A DNA stretch of 64,000 bases from a virus (IMGVR_UViG_3300027747_002579:43672-107671), one strand, 5' to 3'. Positions 8,182 through 64,000 are shown, numbered from the stretch's first letter. Made by a program: numbers and translations. The notes: generated by a model not told the origin, from the letters alone.

Positions 8182-11100
8182 ATGGCATGTATAAATCCCA
8201 ACACCCCAGAATTTAAAGCAGCGTTAGAAAGAAATGGTGGCAATCCATTATTAGCTGAGATGGAATTAAGTGAGAAAGAAATTAAACCAGGAGTGGAAGA
8301 ATTATTCAATTCCTCTCCTGAGTTGGCTAATATAGGAACACAAGAACAATATTCTCAATACTTAGATAGTATATTTCCTGATAGTAAAGTAAAAGAAGTT
8401 TTATATCATATGACTTCTTATGATGGAAAAAAAGGAATAGAACAAAAAGGAAGATTTTTAAAACCTGGAGAAAAAGGTTATCAGAAAAGAGATTATGCAA
8501 CTACAGGAGGTATTTATTTTACAGATAATAATAGTTATGATGAAGATACAGAAATGTATGGTTCTCCTGTTACTGGTGCATATGGTTCAGCTTATGTATC
8601 AGCTATTCTAAATATTAAAAACCCACTCATTGATTTAACTAAAAGTTTTGGTGATATATCTAAAACAGAATTAAAAGATAATGATGGTTTTGTAGGTACA
8701 AATGAATCAAAAGAAATTGGCGTTCTTGAACCAGAACAAATACACATATTAGGAAATAAACAAGACATAGAAGGATTTAAAGAGTTTGTTAATAAAAAAG
8801 AAACAGCTCCTCTTCTTCAATTAGAGGAAGGACCTAAAAGCTCAAAAGCTTCCACTCAAACATTAAACAAAATAAAAGAGCTTGCTAAGAAAATAGGAGT
8901 GAGCATTCAGAGTCTTTCTGAATATGCAAAAAACAATCCTGATGTTAAAACATCTTCTATAAATGGATTGGCAGACTTAGTGAAATCAATTGTAGCAATT
9001 GCTGATGGAAAAGAAGACGTTGCTCTTACAGAAGAAATGGTGCACATTGCTACAGCAATGATAGAGCAAACCAATCCAACATTAATTACAGAAGCTATTT
9101 CTAAGATTGATAGATTCAAAATATACAAAAAAACATTAGACGCATATAAAGATAACAAGCACTATCAACTTCCTAACGGAAAACCTGACATACGCAAAAT
9201 AAAGAAAGAAGCTGTAGACAAACTAATTGTGGAAGTGATAATAAACAAATCAGAAGGCTCTACAGAATTTCCAGAATTAATGCAAGAAGAAAATGTTTCA
9301 TTTGTAAGAAAACTATGGAATAGAATTATAGATAAAATATTCTCTAAAGTGAAGGGTTCAAACATAAACATATTTGAACAAATAGGAGAAACAGTGTTAG
9401 AAGGAAACATTGAAGGACTTGCAAAAGATAAAGGTTTGACAGGCATATATTTGCAAACAGTGTCAGATAAACAAAAAGCTGTACAAGAAAGACTATTAAT
9501 AGACCAAGACAGAATAACAAAAGTTGTAGAAACTGCTTCTGTAGATCCAATGTTTTTAGACTCTGAAGACGCTAGTAATTTCTACAATATGAAAAATACA
9601 AGCGGTGTAGATGAGAGAGTGGTGAAGAGAGTGACAGACAGAGTGAAGGCTTGGTATAAGAAGAAGTTTGGAACAAAGGTGTTTAGTGAAGCAGAGAAGA
9701 AGTATAACAATATGTTAAGAGACTATGGTGTCAAAGGACACAATGATTTAGAAGAAATTCATTCTAGATTTTTTCATAAAGATGGTACACAAAAAACAAC
9801 AGCTTCTCCAAGACCTTCTAAATTCAATGTAGAAAGCGAAGATATTTATTTAAAGCTTGAAGAATATTACATAGATTTAATAAAGCTTTTAAAAAAACAA
9901 AACAATGGTGTTGTTCCTCTTGTCTTCTCTGAGGTGAAGGTTTATGACCCTAAAGAAAAAGAAGCAGGAACAATAGATTTTCTAGCAATAGACTCTAATG
10001 GAAAAGGACACATCCTTGATTGGAAGTTTATGAATATTAAAGGAGATGATGTTGCTTGGTATAAAAATGGTGCATTCGATATACAATTAGGAAGATATAA
10101 ACAAATGCTTCGTGATGTTTATGGAATAAAAGAATTTGGAATGATTAGAGCAATTCCTATCTCTATGGAATTCACTCTCTCCAACCCAAGAGATGTTAAA
10201 TCAGATTTGAAACTAAAAGGAATTGGTATTGGTAGTGCTGATTCTAGAAAAATAGAAGACATTAAATTAATGCCTATTTCTGAAAAAACAGAATCTACAG
10301 GATATTCTAAATTAGACAAGCTCATAAGCAATATGAATGCTTTGATGTCTAGCTATTCAAAAAAAGAAGTGACTTCTGAAGATGATAAACAGTTTAAAAT
10401 TGAAACGTTAGAGATATTAAGAAAGGCTATAAAGGTGGCACAAGCAACCAATAACTTAGTTCCAATAATTGATGTAATTGAAAAGATTAGAATAGAAGGA
10501 GAAAAGTTGTTAAATGATTACAACAGTAAATATAAAAATCTATCTCCTACAGACACTTCTGTCTCAAGAAGTGAAATAAATGATTTTTCAGAAAGGATGA
10601 GGTTATTTTACAATGCTTCTAATATTTTTACAGAAACAGGAAGACAATTGTCACAACTGATTTATGAAGAAGGGATGTTGGAAAAAGCTGTTTCTCCAGA
10701 AGAGAAAAAAAATGCAACAGAAAGAAAACAATTAGCAGATACACTAAAGAAACAATCTCAGGACATTGCAAACATGAGAGATGATATTAGAGATGAGAGT
10801 ATTGTGTTTGCAGATAAACAAATAGGAATACGAAATCTTATAACAGGACTTCCTAGTGCAGAAGCTGTATTAAAAGGACTAGGAGCTTTCTTCAGAGGAG
10901 CTTCAGACCTTCCTAATGCAGCAATTAGAGTTTTAGTAAAATTAACTTCTTCTGCCAAAGAAATTGCAGCAAAAGAGTCTTTCGATGAAGTGGAAGAGTT
11001 GATGAAAATAAGAAAGAAGATTGTTGATAGAGGTGGAGATGTTAGATCTTTTGTAAAGAAAATCTATAGAAAGAATGAAAAGAACGAAGTGGTTAATAAG

Positions 11101-27144: not shown

Positions 27145-30003
27145 CTAAATGTTAATTTCACATTGACCACCACCACAAGCTTGTACATCATTAAAGTTTA
27201 CAGTGTCTTCAACTTCTATCACCTTTGTAAGATCAATAGTTTTGAGAGATTCTATTCTCCTATTGTATTCTTCTTCAGTAATTTCAGAAAAAGGTGCTTG
27301 TACATAACTTCCATTATCATAAGGTAGAACACTAATTCCATTATACACATCTCTATTCTCCCACATCCATTGTCCTACAGCTTCCCATTCATCTTTTGAT
27401 TCAGATTCAAAGTTCACAAAATCATTTGGATAATATTTTCTATTCTTATCTATAGAAACTGTAACAGAGACATTGTGCGTATTATCACCATGAATATGTC
27501 CTGGTAATATCCATTCTGTAGAAAACTTCTTTACACGTTCTAATGTATCAATAGCTGTCTCATTTCTAAATATAGAACCTTCTGGAGCTTTAACAGGAAT
27601 CCTAATGCATACAGTGTCTTTTGGTCTAAGAATATCGTCTTCACACATTTCAGGATGATGTATCATTAAATAAGCAGCAATGTCTTCATTCTTATTAAAT
27701 CTCATTGTTCTCAAATAATAAGGAGCATGCCATGCATGTATTCCTGAAGAAGTTCCTAACACTAATGATGTAGTTCCTGAAGGCTTAATGCATGTAATAC
27801 GAGCAGCTTCATTAATTCCTATAATAGCACTGATGTTACTATTTGTTTCTTTAGCAACAGTTGCTGCTATTTCAAGATTGTATTTAAGAATCTCACCACT
27901 ACCTATTCCAGTCATTCCTATACCCAATAAAGCATCTTTATCTGTGGTTTGTTTCCATATAGGTCGTAAATAATGAAAGTCTGTAAATCCTGCTTGCAAT
28001 GTTCCAAAGAAAGCAGCAGCTCCCACTCTATTGCATAAGTCTTCTTGACTTACAATATCAGAAACATTCACTTCACATAAATTGCAAAAAGAGTTTGGAC
28101 GTAAAGCAATCTCACAATTATGAGCAATCACTCCTTCCACCACTCCCCAATGTGTATCATCTTCTAAATTAAAATCAAAAACTTGTTGTGTTGCAGACTC
28201 ATAAACAGATTTCAAAACTTTAGGAGCTTTTTCTTTAATTAACTCTTCTAAAGCATTTTGTTTATACGTGTGAATAAAGTTAATTTTTTCAGCAAAGGTT
28301 AAAACAGATTGAAACTGTGTTATATTTAAATCATAAGATTCTTTGCAAACATAATTACCATTACTAAACGCCACCTCTTTTGATTTATTTGTAGTGTAAT
28401 AGCAAGCTATATTTTGATTTTCTAAAATCTTTTTCACTGCAAGAATTAATTCAAGACATGAAGACTTTAAAGAAACTCTATGTTTAGATATAACAGAACC
28501 ATTTGCAGAATAAAGTCCTTTTAAAAATTGCAATTGATCTGCTGCTTTCCAATAAAAAATTGTTGATGGTAATTTTCTTTTAGGTAAATTTTCAGAAGAA
28601 AATCCTAGAACACTTAACATATTGTTATATCCAGACACATATTGATTTCCTGTTTCAGAAAATCCAAATATTTCAGCAACATCTAAATCTTTTTCACCAA
28701 AATAAACTTCCATACCTAGATGAGATTGAGAAGACAGTCTTCCTAAAGCTCCATCGCCCTGAATAAACCCATATTTTGTATATTCAGAAATCTCTTTGTT
28801 CATTCTATAGAAAGGCATCACTCTTTTTCCCACTAAACCTTCAGCAGGAACTTCTTCATTATCTACAGTTAAAAATATGTGATTTGGTGTACATGTAATT
28901 TTAGTTGTATCACTTAAACTCAATGTCATCACTTCTTTATCACCTGTGCTCCATACAGAAGCAGGAACATATTCTCCATTTTTGTTGATTGCCATAAAGT
29001 TTTTTCCTTCAAGACTTTCAAAAGATTCATATCCTTCAGCTGTTAGAAGTTTTGTATTTCCTGTAAAACAACAAGGATTGGACATCATATCTCTATTGTT
29101 TGTCCAATAAACTCCTGGTTCTCCAGATCCACTTGCTTCAATTCTTTCCCAAAGAGAATTAAAATCACTCTCTGTAATCTTATCTCTCTCAAGAACAGCA
29201 CTGTTGTTACATCTTCCTCTCTGCTCGTTAGTTTCCCACCATTCTCCATATTTACATGTAATCATTTCTTCATCATTATAGTCAAAGAAAGAAATACAAG
29301 CACTTCTTCTAATACCTCCTGACAAAACACTGTTTGCAATATGGCATATAATATCATGACATTCTAATGGAGAAAGTCTTTCTCCTTCTTTCTTCCTGTC
29401 AAGAATTGCTTGAATATGTACAAGACATATCTTCAATGGTTCTGGACCAGGAGCTTTACCGCCAGCTGTAACAAGCATTGCTCCTTTTTCTCTAATTGCT
29501 CTGAAATCAAAATTAGGAAGAAACTTTCCTTCTAAATATGATTTCATCAACACTTTAACAGCATCAGCCCACCCTAAAATTGAATCTTCGACAAGATAGG
29601 TTTTCTTCTTTCCAGGTTTTTTAATTGTTGGTAGAGAGTTAACATGATGTTTCTGAACAGAAAAGCCAAATCCACAACCTGACAATAACAAGAACATTGC
29701 TTCAGAGAAAGCATATACACTATCAATAGGAGCATAGCTACAATTGAATCCTCTAGCATTGTTCACTTCCATAGCAGGTCCTGCAAATTGCAGAGCTCTC
29801 ATAGAAGGTAACACTTTCTTTTCTCTAATGAATATTGTAGAAGCTTTGATTGCTTCTGTTAGCGTTGGATATTTCTTCACTAACATTGTTTCATACCTGT
29901 CCACTATCTCGTCCCATGTTTCTCTTCTGTTTTTCTCAGGGATAAATTTTGCATACTTACTAAACACCGTGAGCTTGGACAGCGTGTCAATTCCTAAATC
30001 CAT
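27145..30003 (-). CDS. nrdJ: Class II ribonucleoside-triphosphate reductase with intein
   Basis: A 952-residue precursor; without the intein about 634 residues remain. The active-site motif NPC (309-311) continues after the intein as CEIALRPNSFCNL (630-642). Cys88 in GFNCSYAP is the partner Cys. The C-terminus has two Cys six positions apart counting both (943 and 948 in ACGGGQCEI), the same spacing as the swinging pair of the monomeric B12-dependent enzyme of Lactobacillus leichmannii. No small radical subunit is nearby. I therefore call class II, using adenosylcobalamin from the host. It reduces ribonucleotides for phage DNA synthesis and is followed by DUF5522, recA and dut. Confidence 0.88.
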   Translation of the reverse strand: MDLGIDTLSKLTVFSKYAKFIPEKNRRETWDEIVDRYETMLVKKYPTLTEAIKASTIFIREKKVLPSMRALQFAGPAMEVNNARGFNCSYAPIDSVYAFSEAMFLLLSGCGFGFSVQKHHVNSLPTIKKPGKKKTYLVEDSILGWADAVKVLMKSYLEGKFLPNFDFRAIREKGAMLVTAGGKAPGPEPLKICLVHIQAILDRKKEGERLSPLECHDIICHIANSVLSGGIRRSACISFFDYNDEEMITCKYGEWWETNEQRGRCNNSAVLERDKITESDFNSLWERIEASGSGEPGVYWTNNRDMMSNPCCFTGNTKLLTAEGYESFESLEGKNFMAINKNGEYVPASVWSTGDKEVMTLSLSDTTKITCTPNHIFLTVDNEEVPAEGLVGKRVMPFYRMNKEISEYTKYGFIQGDGALGRLSSQSHLGMEVYFGEKDLDVAEIFGFSETGNQYVSGYNNMLSVLGFSSENLPKRKLPSTIFYWKAADQLQFLKGLYSANGSVISKHRVSLKSSCLELILAVKKILENQNIACYYTTNKSKEVAFSNGNYVCKESYDLNITQFQSVLTFAEKINFIHTYKQNALEELIKEKAPKVLKSVYESATQQVFDFNLEDDTHWGVVEGVIAHNCEIALRPNSFCNLCEVNVSDIVSQEDLCNRVGAAAFFGTLQAGFTDFHYLRPIWKQTTDKDALLGIGMTGIGSGEILKYNLEIAATVAKETNSNISAIIGINEAARITCIKPSGTTSLVLGTSSGIHAWHAPYYLRTMRFNKNEDIAAYLMIHHPEMCEDDILRPKDTVCIRIPVKAPEGSIFRNETAIDTLERVKKFSTEWILPGHIHGDNTHNVSVTVSIDKNRKYYPNDFVNFESESKDEWEAVGQWMWENRDVYNGISVLPYDNGSYVQAPFSEITEEEYNRRIESLKTIDLTKVIEVEDTVNFNDVQACGGGQCEINI
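28117..29070 (-). mobile_element. Intein with LAGLIDADG endonuclease in the reductase
   Basis: Residues 312-629 of the reductase form a complete intein of 318 residues. It begins CFTGNTKLLT (block A), has TCTPNHIFL (block B, 371-379), two LAGLIDADG motifs (YGFIQGDGAL at 411-420, LKGLYSANGS near 495-503), and ends WGVVEGVIAHN followed by Cys (blocks F and G). All splicing residues are present, so it should excise and rejoin NPC to CEI. It interrupts the thiyl-radical active site, a favoured intein position. Confidence 0.93.
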
Positions 30004-56284: not shown

Positions 56285-56383
56285 CAATGTAGGCAGGACT
56301 CGAACCTGCATTTAGAAGCTGTTTTCAATGTTATTACTTCCACCCGTTTATAGAGCTGCGTATACCAATTCCGCCACTACATT
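56285..56383 (-). tRNA. tRNA-Leu-like gene with abnormal anticodon region
   Basis: On the minus strand: acceptor AATGTAG/CTACATT, D arm GCGGAATTGGTATACGC typical of tRNA-Leu, and T arm GCAGG TTCGAGT CCTGC. These are sound. Between D and T arms lie 47 bases. I tested each T as position 33 and found no 5-pair stem with a 7-base loop. A TAA triplet sits in CTATAAAC, but without a paired stem. CCA is not encoded. It may be a decayed or expanded tRNA, or a tRNA mimic. Confidence 0.6.
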
Positions 56384-56473: not shown

Positions 56474-56618
56474 TGATGGAGGTGGGATTTGAACCCACAA
56501 TGTGGTGCTTCTATAACACTTGTATCTATGTAGTTTTGCATACTACTCACAAGCACCCTCTCAGATAATAGCGTCTACCACGTTAGAGGACACCCCTAAC
56601 ACCTTCCGCCACTCCATC
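56474..56618 (-). tRNA. tRNA-Leu-like gene with inserted hairpins
   Basis: On the minus strand: acceptor GATGGAG/CTCCATC, T arm GTGGG TTCAAAT CCCAC, and D-stem parts GCGG and CGC as in tRNA-Leu. The total is 145 bases against about 85 expected. In the D loop sits a hairpin, GTTAGGGG TGT CCTCTAAC (8 pairs). The anticodon region holds GGTGCTT/AAGCACC enclosing GTAGT ATGCAAA ACTAC, whose loop has T at position 33 and GCA as triplet (a Cys-type anticodon). A CTGAGAG loop (GAG, Leu) lies where an anticodon would be expected but has no stem. Confidence 0.6.
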
Positions 56619-60245: not shown

Positions 60246-60311
60246 AAATAAAAAAGAGAAAACATTTGCAATAAGTGGTGTTATTCAGCACCTTTCGCAA
60301 ACATTTTCTCT
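60246..60311 (-). terminator. Long terminator with 15-pair stem
   Basis: On the minus strand the stem runs 60311-60297 with 60269-60255, 15 pairs including two G-U. Inside is GGTG/CACC. CTCTTTTTTATTTT follows. On the plus strand the two G-U pairs become C-A mismatches, so the RNA is made from the minus strand. Confidence 0.8.
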
Positions 60312-60322
60312 ATAAGAGAGAA

Positions 60323-60679
60323 TTAATTGAAAAATGTTAATGCCCATTTATAGAGCTCCAATGTTTCTCTATCAAACCAATCATCCTCGTCCTCAGACAA
60401 GAATGCGATTTGCCTCTCCACATCTTCCTTTGAATAAGGATTGTGGAGATATGATTCTCCAAATGCTTTCATTTCTTCTGGACTACCACCATCGTAGCCA
60501 AATCTTGCCTGAAATGGATCACAATGGTCACAAGAGCCATAAGCTCCTATCACCACGCTGCGTTGACCATTATAGTCAACAACAGCACCCCAAGTGCCTT
60601 GATAATCACCTGAGGCTTTGAAATCTATTACCGTAGCACCTGCTGCTTTCAACGCTGAACTATACCCGTAAGCTGCCAT
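60323..60679 (-). CDS. Hypothetical protein
   Basis: A 118-residue protein (GTWGAVVDYNGQRSVV, GAYGSCDHCDPFQARFG, then an acidic helical end). The GSCDHCDPF stretch is a pattern seen in many phage proteins and may bind metal. Function unknown. Confidence 0.6.
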   Translation of the reverse strand: MAAYGYSSALKAAGATVIDFKASGDYQGTWGAVVDYNGQRSVVIGAYGSCDHCDPFQARFGYDGGSPEEMKAFGESYLHNPYSKEDVERQIAFLSEDEDDWFDRETLELYKWALTFFN

Positions 60680-60792
60680 AAAATATATATTTGAGGATGA
60701 ATAAAAAATAATTTAAAAAAAGAAAATAGAAGTCCCCTACTAACACATTTCTGTGCGTTCAGGGAAACCTCAAAATCAGTTGAAAAATAATA

Positions 60793-60972
60793 TATACGCA
60801 TGTCGTTTGCTTTTGTATACAAACTTTCTCCATTATTATTACAAACCTAGTCTCATTATGAATGTCTTTTCAATTCATCTTTAAGATTTTGTTATAGGAA
60901 ATGGAGACAGAGCAACCTTAATTTATGTTTGTTTAGGCTGTACACATCAGCACGCCACTCTCCATGCGTATA
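60793..60972 (-). other. Multi-branched RNA element 1
   Basis: The outer stem is TATACGCATG (60793-60802) with CATGCGTATA (60963-60972), 10 perfect pairs. Inside: TCTCCATT (60827-60834) with AATGGAGA (60900-60907), ATGAAT/ATTCAT (60858-60863, 60873-60878), and the palindrome TTTGTATACAAA (60812-60823). The element starts 4 bases after the stop of the gene at 60977. No convincing gene lies between 60680 and 60976. Confidence 0.55.
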
Positions 60973-60976
60973 AATA

Positions 60977-61201
60977 TTATTGCAAGGTGTAGGTGTCGTT
61001 AGAACTTGACACCAAAATACCCATTTTTTTAAGTTGTGTACGAGACAAGCTCGTAACAACAGTGAAGCCGTGTTGTGTGTAGAGCGGTGCTCCATCACAC
61101 TGTGAACAGCAAATAAATATATCCTTTATTGCAGGCTTCGCGTTTCCAAACGATGCTGCTGCATCAGCATTTTTTACAAAATATTTCTTATCTGTGTTCA
61201 T
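60977..61201 (-). CDS. Hypothetical protein
   Basis: A 74-residue protein (KNADAAASFGNAKPAIKDI, CCSQCDG). It lies between RNA elements: element 1 follows it and the acceptor/T-arm minihelix is 49 bases upstream. Its codon choice is less AT-driven than the replication genes. Function unknown. Confidence 0.58.
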   Translation of the reverse strand: MNTDKKYFVKNADAAASFGNAKPAIKDIFICCSQCDGAPLYTQHGFTVVTSLSRTQLKKMGILVSSSNDTYTLQ

Positions 61202-61250
61202 ACTAATGGTAAGGTTAACCTATACACCTAAAGGTTTTAATTAAAATAAG

Positions 61251-61296
61251 TGCAAAGTGAGAGAATCGAACTCTATAGAACATTCCAATCTTTGCA
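61251..61296 (-). ncRNA. tRNA-like acceptor/T-arm minihelix
   Basis: On the minus strand TGCAAAG (61296-61290) pairs with CTTTGCA (61257-61251), and a T arm AGAG TTCGATT CTCT sits just before the 3' strand. Only 15 bases join the 5' strand to the T arm, so there is no D or anticodon arm. I looked through the next 300 bases for another acceptor partner and found none. It stands in the leader of the gene at 60977-61201. Confidence 0.5.
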
Positions 61297-61395
61297 TATC
61301 GCTAATATCAAGAGGATAATCTCAATCAATCAACTAATCTGTGGTAACTGAACAGATTTAAACAGTAGTAAATTTTACAGTTTTTTACTCAACTG

Positions 61396-61500
61396 GCTGC
61401 AATAGGCATCATAAATCTAATAAACAATTATCTGTTTATTGACCAAGATTCATTTAGCCTGATAATACACACATCCAATTAAGGATATGTAAATTGCAGC
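61396..61500 (-). other. Multi-branched RNA element 2
   Basis: Three-way junction. Outer stem: 61396-61403 with 61493-61500 (8 pairs). Arm one: 61404-61407 with 61457-61460, then 61411-61418 with 61446-61453 and 61419-61426 with 61433-61440 (16 stacked pairs with a 5-base bulge). Arm two: 61470-61476 with 61483-61489. Arms one and two each hold one pair that is G-U on the minus strand but A-C on the plus strand. Minus-strand RNA is therefore favoured. Confidence 0.6.
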
Positions 61501-61560
61501 AACTTCTTAATTATTCATCTCCACAAGACGGTCAAATCTTGCAGAGGAAGTTGTTTTTTT
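61500..61560 (+). terminator. Terminator-like hairpin on the plus strand
   Basis: CAACTTC (61500-61506) pairs with GAAGTTG (61547-61553), with CAAGA/TCTTG inside, and T7 follows directly. No plus-strand gene ends here. It either ends an antisense RNA or is just another minus-strand hairpin that happens to follow an A-run. Confidence 0.4.
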
Positions 61561-61743
61561 ATAACATAATGGTTTGTGTTGTGAAGATCTTTCACAAAAA
61601 AAAAATGAAAAAATAATAAAAAATAGGATTTATAAAGGTTTTTTATACGTTAGTTTTAGCATGATATATCAATGCATCTAACGTTTTTTATCCTTCACCA
61701 ACAAGTGAGTTTCCTCTTTTCAAGCGGTATTCTTGTTGTTGTA
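61561..61743. other. Gene-free stretch with two hairpins
   Basis: I see no gene. ACGTTAG (61647-61653) pairs with CTAACGT (61678-61684) and contains GCAT/ATGC. CAACAAG (61699-61705) pairs with CTTGTTG (61732-61738). A long A-run lies at 61597-61605. These may be part of the long leader of the gene at 60977-61201. Confidence 0.4.
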
Positions 61744-61841
61744 CAGCTCAGCACCACGCTATGAGCCGCCTATTTAGTTTAATACAGGTAAAAGCTAAAT
61801 TACGATGTAATGGACCTAAACCCTGTATTGTTGATGAGCTG
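61744..61841. other. Multi-branched RNA element 3
   Basis: Outer stem CAGCTCA (61744-61750) with TGAGCTG (61835-61841). Inside, AATACAGG (61781-61788) pairs with CCTGTATT (61822-61829) and encloses ATTAC/GTAAT (61799-61803, 61807-61811). A competing small hairpin GCTCA/TGAGC lies at the left foot, so two folds are possible. Nothing decides the strand. Confidence 0.45.
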
Positions 61842-61931
61842 AATGTCCCTATCATATCTCATCTTTACAAATCAAATACGTTTTTGTATTTCAGAACGTA
61901 TAAACTGGGGCGTAGTTTTAATTCCCGTCGA

Positions 61932-61979
61932 CCTGTGCCCTAAGGAGAATAAGCAGTTTTATGTCATGCTTAGGACAGG
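61932..61979 (-). other. Hairpin after the gene at 61984
   Basis: CCTGT, a GC bulge and CCTAAG (61932-61944) pair with CTTAGG and ACAGG (61969-61979), 11 pairs. It begins 5 bases after the stop codon on the minus strand. No T-run follows, so it may shield the 3' end. Confidence 0.5.
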
Positions 61980-61983
61980 CTGA

Positions 61984-62352
61984 TTAGAATGCAGGGCAAA
62001 TGCCTCTACATCCTATAAAACTATTGCCATCAGGAGTGTATACAGGATCAGCCACTGTATACAATTTGCTGCAATCTACACCTGCAGCCTTAGCAGCTGA
62101 AGCGTATAGAGCAGAAACAATGTAAACATCAAAACCGTCTGGTAATGAGTCTACTCCTGAGAAACTCTTGCCAAATACAGGGATATCAGCAATAGATGGC
62201 AAATCTATTGTAGATATTTTAGCACTAAGCACTCCTGTAGAAGGAATACTTAGCACTACGTCACCTCCAACATACTTGCGTATTGCTGGAGTGAAAACAG
62301 AACCTGAAACCACATTTATGGCATGTGGTGTGCCATTAAAAATCTTAGACAT
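61984..62352 (-). CDS. Conserved hypothetical protein, GCRGI-type end
   Basis: A 122-residue protein (FNGTPHAINVVSG, PSTGVLSAKIST, LPDGFDVYIVSALYASAAKAAG, ending GCRGICPAF). The order TPH, PSG-like, IVS with Ala-rich helix, DG and GCRG resembles a small protein of phages and actinobacteria of unknown role. Its leader carries element 4. Confidence 0.62.
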   Translation of the reverse strand: MSKIFNGTPHAINVVSGSVFTPAIRKYVGGDVVLSIPSTGVLSAKISTIDLPSIADIPVFGKSFSGVDSLPDGFDVYIVSALYASAAKAAGVDCSKLYTVADPVYTPDGNSFIGCRGICPAF

Positions 62353-62386
62353 AACTATATTGATTTAATTGGTTACTAAAAGTTTG

Positions 62387-62501
62387 CTCTGTTCCTCCTT
62401 TAAGCTACAGAGACTGATTTCAATGAATATTTGCTAGGAAATCTTACACTTGCGAGAGGGTATATCTCTCTGGGCGTACGCTTTTGTGAACGCAAATATC
62501 C
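62387..62501 (-). other. Structured leader, element 4
   Basis: Stem 62425-62434 with 62492-62501 is 10 pairs on the minus strand with one G-U that would be A-C on the plus strand. Inside are GAGAG/CTCTC (62454-62458, 62466-62470) and a GCGT/ACGC foot. A separate hairpin CTCTGT/ACAGAG (62387-62392, 62407-62412) holds AGGAGG in its loop on the minus strand. Both lie in the leader of the gene at 61984-62352. Confidence 0.55.
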
Positions 62502-62586
62502 ATCTAAGAAGGTTTCCACCTACAATAGCCTAAATGTATTAGACATCAAAATGTTCATTCTTCAGAAGAACATATAACAACAACCC

Positions 62587-62624
62587 ATTCCCATAGAGAA
62601 ACGAATCTCTATGAGAACAGGAAT
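62587..62624 (-). other. Hairpin after the gene at 62628
   Basis: CATAGAGA (62592-62599) pairs perfectly with TCTCTATG (62606-62613), extended by ATTCC/GGAAT. It lies 3 bases after the stop on the minus strand; GGGTTGTTGTT follows rather than a clean T-run. Another hairpin at about 62550-62573 (ATGTTC/GAACAT) is next to it. Confidence 0.5.
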
Positions 62625-62627
62625 AAT

Positions 62628-62885
62628 TTACCACTGGTCTCCAAAGTGGGACATAAAGTCCCTCCATCTAAAATTCTCATTCTTTTCAAGAATGGAATTC
62701 ATGAGAGCCATATCTTCAGGAGTAGCTTCTCTTACAGTTTTGTCAACCACCTCGAACTCGTAGTGGTTAACAAATTCACGAGCTATCTCTAGCCCGTTCA
62801 TAAAGAATACACTAAAACTTCCTGTAGCACCATCTTCTGCTATGAAATTGCTTACTCTTACAGACACTACGTTGTTAAAACTCAT
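62628..62885 (-). CDS. Hypothetical protein
   Basis: An 85-residue protein (SVRVSNFIAEDGATGSFSV, AREFVNHYEFEVVD, ATPEDMALMNSILEKN). It has a long structured leader (62886-63397). Function unknown. Confidence 0.58.
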   Translation of the reverse strand: MSFNNVVSVRVSNFIAEDGATGSFSVFFMNGLEIAREFVNHYEFEVVDKTVREATPEDMALMNSILEKNENFRWRDFMSHFGDQW

Positions 62886-63002
62886 GATATATATAAATTA
62901 AAGAGGTTACAAAAGAATGTATAAGCGATGTTGTTCTTATACGTACACACAATTAACCATCAACGTATCTACCGTTTGTGTGCTATTGCCATTAAAATAT
63001 TC

Positions 63003-63027
63003 ATTATGTACGGCAATTGTACATAAT
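63003..63027. other. Perfect 9-pair hairpin
   Basis: ATTATGTAC and GTACATAAT enclose a 7-base loop. It lies in the leader of the gene at 62628. Nearby GTATAAG/CTTATAC and ACACACA/TGTGTG pairs (about 62920-62980) suggest the whole leader is folded. Confidence 0.45.
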
Positions 63028-63100
63028 GTATATAAGAGAATGTGATGTGTTAAGGGTTATTGGTCACCCTATACATCCCTTTCTCCTATATAAATACATG

Positions 63101-63157
63101 TTTTGTTTAACGATAAGTTGAAAAAAGCCGCCTTTTCTTTTCAAACGTTAAACAAAA
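63101..63157. other. Long hairpin, 12 pairs
   Basis: TTTTGTTTAACG (63101-63112) pairs perfectly with CGTTAAACAAAA (63146-63157). Inside, TTGAAAA pairs with TTTTCAA. It is next to element 5. Confidence 0.5.
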
Positions 63158-63178
63158 CGTATATATCCCCTCTGCATT

Positions 63179-63257
63179 CAATTGTAATACGTCTTGTACA
63201 AGACATTAAATTATTCCTCGTTCCATTTATGGTCTTTAGGATAATATATTACAATTG
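63179..63257. other. Three-way junction, element 5
   Basis: Outer stem CAATTGTAATA (63179-63189) with TATTACAATTG (63247-63257), 11 perfect pairs. Arm one is the perfect palindrome GTCTTGTACAAGAC (63191-63204). Arm two is ATTATTCCT (63210-63218) with AGGATAAT (63238-63245), 8 pairs with a one-base bulge. Linkers are 1, 5 and 1 bases, so this is the cleanest junction in the region. Confidence 0.58.
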
Positions 63258-63318
63258 CTCATCCTTGGGAAATGAGATTGATGCATTAAATATATTCTTT
63301 CTATAGAACAATATAAAA

Positions 63319-63389
63319 CCCTTTGGAGTATATATATAATTAATTATTCAACACACATTCGTGATGAATATAATATATACCCCAAAGGG
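63319..63389 (-). terminator. Long hairpin after the first minus-strand gene
   Basis: CCCTTTGG and GTATATA on one side (63319-63334) pair with TATATAC and CCAAAGGG (63374-63389). On the minus strand the joining position is G-U, giving 16 stacked pairs; on the plus strand it is A-C. GGGTTTTATATTG follows on the minus strand, so it is a possible terminator or a processing site. Confidence 0.55.
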
Positions 63390-63760: not shown

Positions 63761-63850
63761 AAAACAAATCACAGGGAGGTATGTTGCACCCCGTCAATCA
63801 AAGGAGGGGTTGATATTGGAAGTACTCTCCTCTCCCATCTACATAAAGGA

Positions 63851-63884
63851 GGGGGGGGGGCTAGAAAAAAAAATTTTTTTTTTT
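63851..63884. repeat. Homopolymer tract G10-CTAG-A9-T11
   Basis: Ten G, then CTAG, nine A and eleven T stand together upstream of the first minus-strand gene. The A9-T11 part should be bent DNA. It may mark an early promoter or origin region, or partly reflect sequencing error in homopolymers. I see no gene from 63761 to the right edge. Confidence 0.6.
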
Positions 63885-64000
63885 GTATTTATATTTCCCC
63901 TTACCTTTGAAGGGTGGAGGGCGGGAATAGATCTATAGAAACCATAGAATTTTTAGGATTTTATAGCTTATGTGGTTTAGAGGAGTTTTTAGTTTACACG

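Follow-up and report, generated by a model that had tools for sequence, protein, structure and literature searches.

The chain of stems lying between the small early genes of this virus (positions 60246-63389) consists, with a probability that we put at about 70%, of real sense-strand RNA structures separating swappable genes, one of which, element B (63160-63296, minus strand), represents a divergent self-cleaving ribozyme of the twister P1 type. The window analyzed, 64,000 nucleotides in length, corresponds to positions 43672-107671 of a 107,671-bp IMG/VR virus record. The chain occupies the distal end of a leftward early gene block, some kilobases ahead of the rightward terminase gene, and the minus strand is the gene-sense strand across it. 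The genome is effectively circular, as the contig of a sister phage (G008) continues across the end of the record into its start. The terminase belongs to the crAss-like lineage, with its closest match in Leptolyngbya phage Lbo-JY46 (39.6%), and a 122-aa early protein (61984-62352, minus strand) has relatives with 36-39% identity in two Pseudanabaena phages, Pam2 and PA-SR01; taken together, these relationships hint at a cyanobacterial host. Positions 27145-30003 (minus strand) encode a ribonucleotide reductase interrupted by an intein, which comprises a splicing domain and a LAGLIDADG endonuclease. Between the early and late blocks, the stretch 63774-63996 carries the motifs AAAAATTTTT and GGGAGAGGAG..CTACT..CCAA..ACCCC, recognisable in about 43 relatives; it is perhaps an early promoter or leader, and RNAalifold gave no consensus fold for the alignment of the 43 loci.

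A sequence-only reading of this DNA had noted hairpins and junctions strung between the small genes, with imperfect pairs that were one-sidedly minus-strand G-U. When stems of at least ten pairs were scanned for, with 40 local dinucleotide shuffles as control, both points were confirmed. Eight strong stems were found in 60246-63389 (shuffles: mean 0.45, maximum 3), and the imperfect pairs in the stems, read on the minus strand, comprise 15 G-U vs. 2 A-C (binomial p 0.002), the corresponding shuffle values being 0.55 and 0.40, so that shuffled sequences of the same composition equalled neither the stems nor the wobble bias. The ratio is 10:2 (p 0.04) when the intragenic stems 62220-62258 and 62739-62774 are left out. 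Genome-wide, wobble pairs slightly favour the plus strand in stems among plus-strand genes (20:14) and favour the minus strand in stems of the early minus-strand region (16:3); the minus-strand bias is thus that of the sense strand of the early genes.

Fold z-scores were computed on the minus strand, on which all elements discussed here lie. The hairpin at 60255-60311 (z -6.2), which lies past the 60323-60679 gene and leads into a T run, resembles an intrinsic terminator and has three G-U pairs on the minus strand and none on the plus strand. Most of the eight elements originally listed are stable. Element 1 (60793-60972; z -4.4) is multibranched, with an interior identical in the sister phage, and element 2 (61396-61500; z -5.3) is a junction with an 8-bp closing stem and a single change in the sister. 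Both element 5 (62425-62501; z -4.9), with a 13-bp closing stem and an inner hairpin, and element 6 (62587-62624; z -7.4), a 16-bp hairpin 3 nt past the stop of the 62628-62885 gene, are identical in the sister, while element 8 (63319-63389; z -6.2), a 17-bp stem right after the stop of the 63398-63763 gene, has a changed loop there with the pairing preserved. By energy alone, element 3 (61744-61841; z -1.9), nearly identical in the sister, and element 4 (61932-61979; z -2.0) are weak. The pairing proposed for element 4 is partly excluded by a hairpin at 61950-61972, which is the part common to other phages; its core, UAAGCA[UGACRUUAAAC]UGCUUA, was found in L233, L178 and L181, in L178 with a compensatory pair. 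Element 7 (63179-63257; z -3.7) belongs to a larger RNA of 137 nt, 63160-63296, of which it forms one arm, the P5-like variable arm of B. A 19-bp stem at 63094-63164, absent from the earlier list, is kept in the sister, L079, L071 and L086.

The seven listed elements other than that of B draw their support from fold energy and from their conservation in a single sister genome; they show no resemblance to any ribozyme, and several of them may be terminators or mRNA-end stabilisers. Applied to the whole chain, such an explanation would have the hairpin after each gene end or protect the message, with B as a non-catalytic structured UTR. This fits the terminator-like hairpin and T run at 60255-60311, as well as the elements 62587-62624, 63319-63389 and 61932-61979, which begin 3-9 nt past stop codons. 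However, a T run is missing from most elements, and a plain stabiliser would have no need of the invariant loop, GAGGG and UAA of B, and we consider this account of the entire chain rather unlikely.

For most of the listed elements the sister phage (G008/L015) provides the sole homologue found, and because the elements are nearly identical in it, the comparison yields almost no covariation. No DNA homologues of the region, or of B, were found among phage isolates. Three long noncoding blocks differ from the sister at 32 of 1176 sites (2.7%), compared to about 161 of 1985 synonymous sites (8.1%) in the late genes (p 1.5e-10). The only fast-changing stretch of a 720-base conserved noncoding block is 61564-61623 (minus strand), which reads GTGAAAGATCTTCAC in the window and GTGGAAGAGCTCCAC in the sister, with one compensatory pair. 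In contrast to the little-changed noncoding blocks, three early genes have dS values of 0.48-0.85 vs. the sister (0.05-0.14 in late genes), the 74-aa gene 60977-61201 is absent there and the 63398-63763 gene has no homologue in it. This pattern points to early genes that are exchanged alleles, some replaced or missing in the sister, and to intergenic RNAs that stay in place.

The swapping of genes between conserved blocks also agrees with another explanation, in which the elements are kept because the early genes recombine homologously there, their structure being secondary. The PeSL cassettes of phage T4, in which an early promoter is reportedly joined to a simple stem-loop, are said to be conserved between exchanged early genes and to have a proposed role in homologous recombination. 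The present chain resembles them in its conserved stem-loops between exchanged early genes and differs in containing branched RNAs and a ribozyme candidate. Recombination linkers, however, predict neither covariation nor a sense-strand G-U bias, and they leave unexplained the presence of a twister core in phages whose terminases are just 25-35% alike. We regard this explanation as unlikely, although a linker role could hold in addition to the ribozyme reading.

The evidence that sets B apart comes from its relatives. With 63179-63257 and its flanks as query, relatives were found in the early regions of other phages. In the first seven seed sequences, 96.6% of the cells of a hand-drawn three-helix structure are paired, vs. 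24-46% in slid-structure controls, and 12 of 21 pairs are changed on both sides, a value reached in none of 500 shuffles; the shuffles used for B covariation leave phylogeny in place. A covariance model, R1, was used to collect further members and gave 33 distinct matches in terminase-linked relatives and 92 in contigs fetched by a core pattern; in all, its hits lie in more than 80 contigs besides that of the window. The core pattern matched at least 119 IMG/VR contig stretches, while a control pattern with one extra spacer base matched one viral contig (L139), which itself carries a B; the core pattern fixed the loop L4 and part of the arm, so that their conservation in the members fetched with it is in part a product of how the hits were chosen. 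The 92 sequences contain 206 double changes and show covariation at 17 of 21 pairs, and imperfect pairs in the relatives favour the sense strand (G-U vs. A-C, 49:15). The strong covariation of this one element, its G-U excess and the sister conservation of the others together uphold the proposed selection on minus-strand RNA; the covariation lies in the helices of 63160-63296, the other elements having one near-identical homologue.

The terminases of B-bearing contigs share between about 25% and 84% identity with that of the window phage, which indicates that B spans deep branches of the crAss-like lineage. Most records carry a single copy and some carry two. Of 53 B sites, 51 lie outside ORFs, which were called mechanically, and 13 (25%) have the next ATG at most 60 nt away, vs. 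10% for random intergenic places. B was not found in the sister phage, and so is a non-essential, accessory unit, consistent with exchangeable modules. The structure, covariation, strand and distribution of B are thus direct observations.

Twister ribozymes are built on the essential stems P1, P2 and P4, with P0, P3 and P5 optional; they have two pseudoknots, T1 and T2, and cleave at U-A, P1 being dispensable for activity (PMC5408937). The skeleton of B, [P1]-UAA-UGCAC-CA..-P4 5 bp[UUCCCAAGG]-arm-A-GUGCA-GAGGG-[P1'], follows the type-P1 twister layout, with an extra arm between P4 and P2'. In the window, P1 (63296-63289 with 63167-63160) is followed by UAA (63288-63286; predicted cut 63288/63287), P2 (63285-63281 with 63177-63173), P4 (63276-63272 with 63262-63258, loop at 63271-63263), the extra arm (63257-63247 with 63189-63179) and GAGGG (63172-63168), all on the minus strand. 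An unaided fold (z -3.5) recovers P1 with its eight pairs, P2, P4 and the arm. The Rfam twister-P1 consensus, taken at the twister match in G095, is ccuu-UAA-cgCc-GCC-(P3)-GcC[GGUCCCAAGCCC]Ggg-UAAA-gGcg-GAGGG-aagg, and B has the same order, both L1 halves, the L4 core, P2 and P4. Among 85 members, UAA is present in 82, GAGGG in 83 and UUCCCAAGG in 82, L4 being pattern-fixed in part of the set, and all five pairs covary in each of P2 and P4. From the twister alignment a P1 helix was expected outside UAA and GAGGG, a part previously outside the B model. The flanks of the 85 members do pair better with their own partners than with permuted ones (0/500), with P1 short or absent in many members.

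B is therefore like twister type P1 (RF03160; PMC5408937) in its strand order (P1-UAA-P2-P4-P2'-GAGGG-P1'), its L4 core UCCCAAG, a CCC/GGG pair of segments capable of forming T1 and the U-A at the predicted cut site. It differs in lacking P3, in its long variable P5-like arm and 9-nt L4, and in having CA.. instead of GC in L2; the RF03160 model run at the B places gave no match, nor did any Rfam model match B at E 10. As for T1, the L4 CCC and L1 GGG are complementary but near invariant, with one compensatory case and a few against. The usual GC:GC of T2 is absent, and L2 CA and L4 GG would allow at most a substitute C-G pair. On this comparison, B is probably a divergent, phage-borne subtype of the type-P1 twister and a putative self-cleaving ribozyme. 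An xrRNA-like block, suggested by the three-way junction, was dropped as a candidate since strand order, UAA, CCCAAG and GAGGG fit twister, and an HDV-like theta ribozyme was ruled out by its differing strand order. Theta ribozymes are small RNAs in gut phages, located next to tRNAs and proposed to process phage RNA (PMC10879173). B is comparable as a small phage RNA candidate for processing phage RNA; unlike these HDV-like folds, it usually lies between protein genes.

While B itself is without an Rfam match, known ribozyme families were found near it in relatives, and these neighbours, like the motif match, are observed directly. Hatchet (RF02678) occurs above cut-off in 3 of 50 B-bearing records, each time on B's strand and some 1 kb 5' of it, and a pistol-like match (RF02679), below cut-off, lies on that strand in 2 of 50. 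In G095, twister-P1 scores 48.5 bits, less than the curated cut-off, at a site about 0.1 kb 5' of B, again on the same strand. Hatchet and pistol have folds unrelated to that of B, with which they share arrays and strand in some phages; an Rfam search of the window found neither. Self-cleaving ribozymes tend to cluster together (PMC10085705).

Other structured RNAs accompany B. An RNA family, S, consists of UACUCUCAUCCAAGCAGG, a variable insert of 5-170 nt and CAAGGGUUGCAACCUUGUGAGAGUA (e.g. L216:105-177, L246:11964-12372 and L204:7968-8085); among its 24 distinct members, 7 of 15 pairs covary. The family has no match in Rfam and directly adjoins B in L246 and L222. Two tRNA-like units on the minus strand of the window, 56285-56383 and 56474-56618 (39 and 32 bits to Rfam tRNA), neither of which was called by ARAGORN, have a leucine-type D arm, acceptor and T arm, with an unusual insert replacing the ordinary anticodon arm. 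Similar units are found in at least 14 relatives, within B-bearing arrays. Just 3' of B in L068, L055, L123, L098, L193 and L184 lies a module, TTGCACATGGAAC..AATATATAGC..GGCAACA..GCTATATATT, whose arms covary between loci and which is a possible H-type pseudoknot. A contig bearing both B and hatchet (L181) also carries a phage tmRNA gene with tRNA-Arg and tRNA-Leu (8424-8820, plus strand).

A constant core with a variable insert is common to B, family S and the tRNA-like units, as would be expected of trans-acting small RNAs whose conserved cores present variable arms to targets or host factors. Against this, B inserts are not enriched in antisense matches to their own loci (9.94 vs. 9.87 shuffled), and a TROVE protein was found in 0 of 33 records, for which reason a TROVE/Y-RNA link was dropped. 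Such a role is improbable. Among the functions initially proposed for the chain (processing sites, stability elements or small RNAs), processing is now the best reading of 63160-63296, and of this element only, on account of its twister layout.

According to the ribozyme model, B may divide early transcripts into pieces. As part of such a transcript it would fold into P1, P2 and P4; the T1 pseudoknot would bring loop L4 (UUCCCAAGG) onto the GAGGG of L1, and self-cleavage would occur between U63288 and A63287. The upstream message would be released with a 2',3'-cyclic phosphate end, and the downstream message would begin with the folded B RNA and a 5'-OH, so that a long early transcript would become separate messages with protected ends; cleavage, cut site and effect on the mRNAs are what we infer from the model. 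The other intergenic structured units, i.e. hairpins and branched elements here and hatchet, pistol-like, ordinary twister-like and tRNA-like units in relatives, would then be exchangeable processing and end-protection units. A more far-reaching possibility, which we put forward tentatively and hold to be somewhat doubtful, is that environmental crAss-like phages process early genes by ribozymes, without host nucleases, through exchangeable RNA arrays that cut and shield transcripts (the new twister subtype, hatchet, pistol-like RNAs, family S and tRNA-like units without an ordinary anticodon arm), with S and some other elements as new ribozyme or RNA classes.

No explanation has been found for the clustering of twister, hatchet and pistol ribozymes close to particular phage genes (PMC10085705). 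B offers a ribozyme candidate with a fixed address, between early genes and on the early strand, in a large phage group, and this address makes its role testable through transcript-end mapping. The results suggest that an abundant subtype escapes the present twister models, and that a large repertoire of structured RNAs in the early regions of crAss-like phages is still uncharted.
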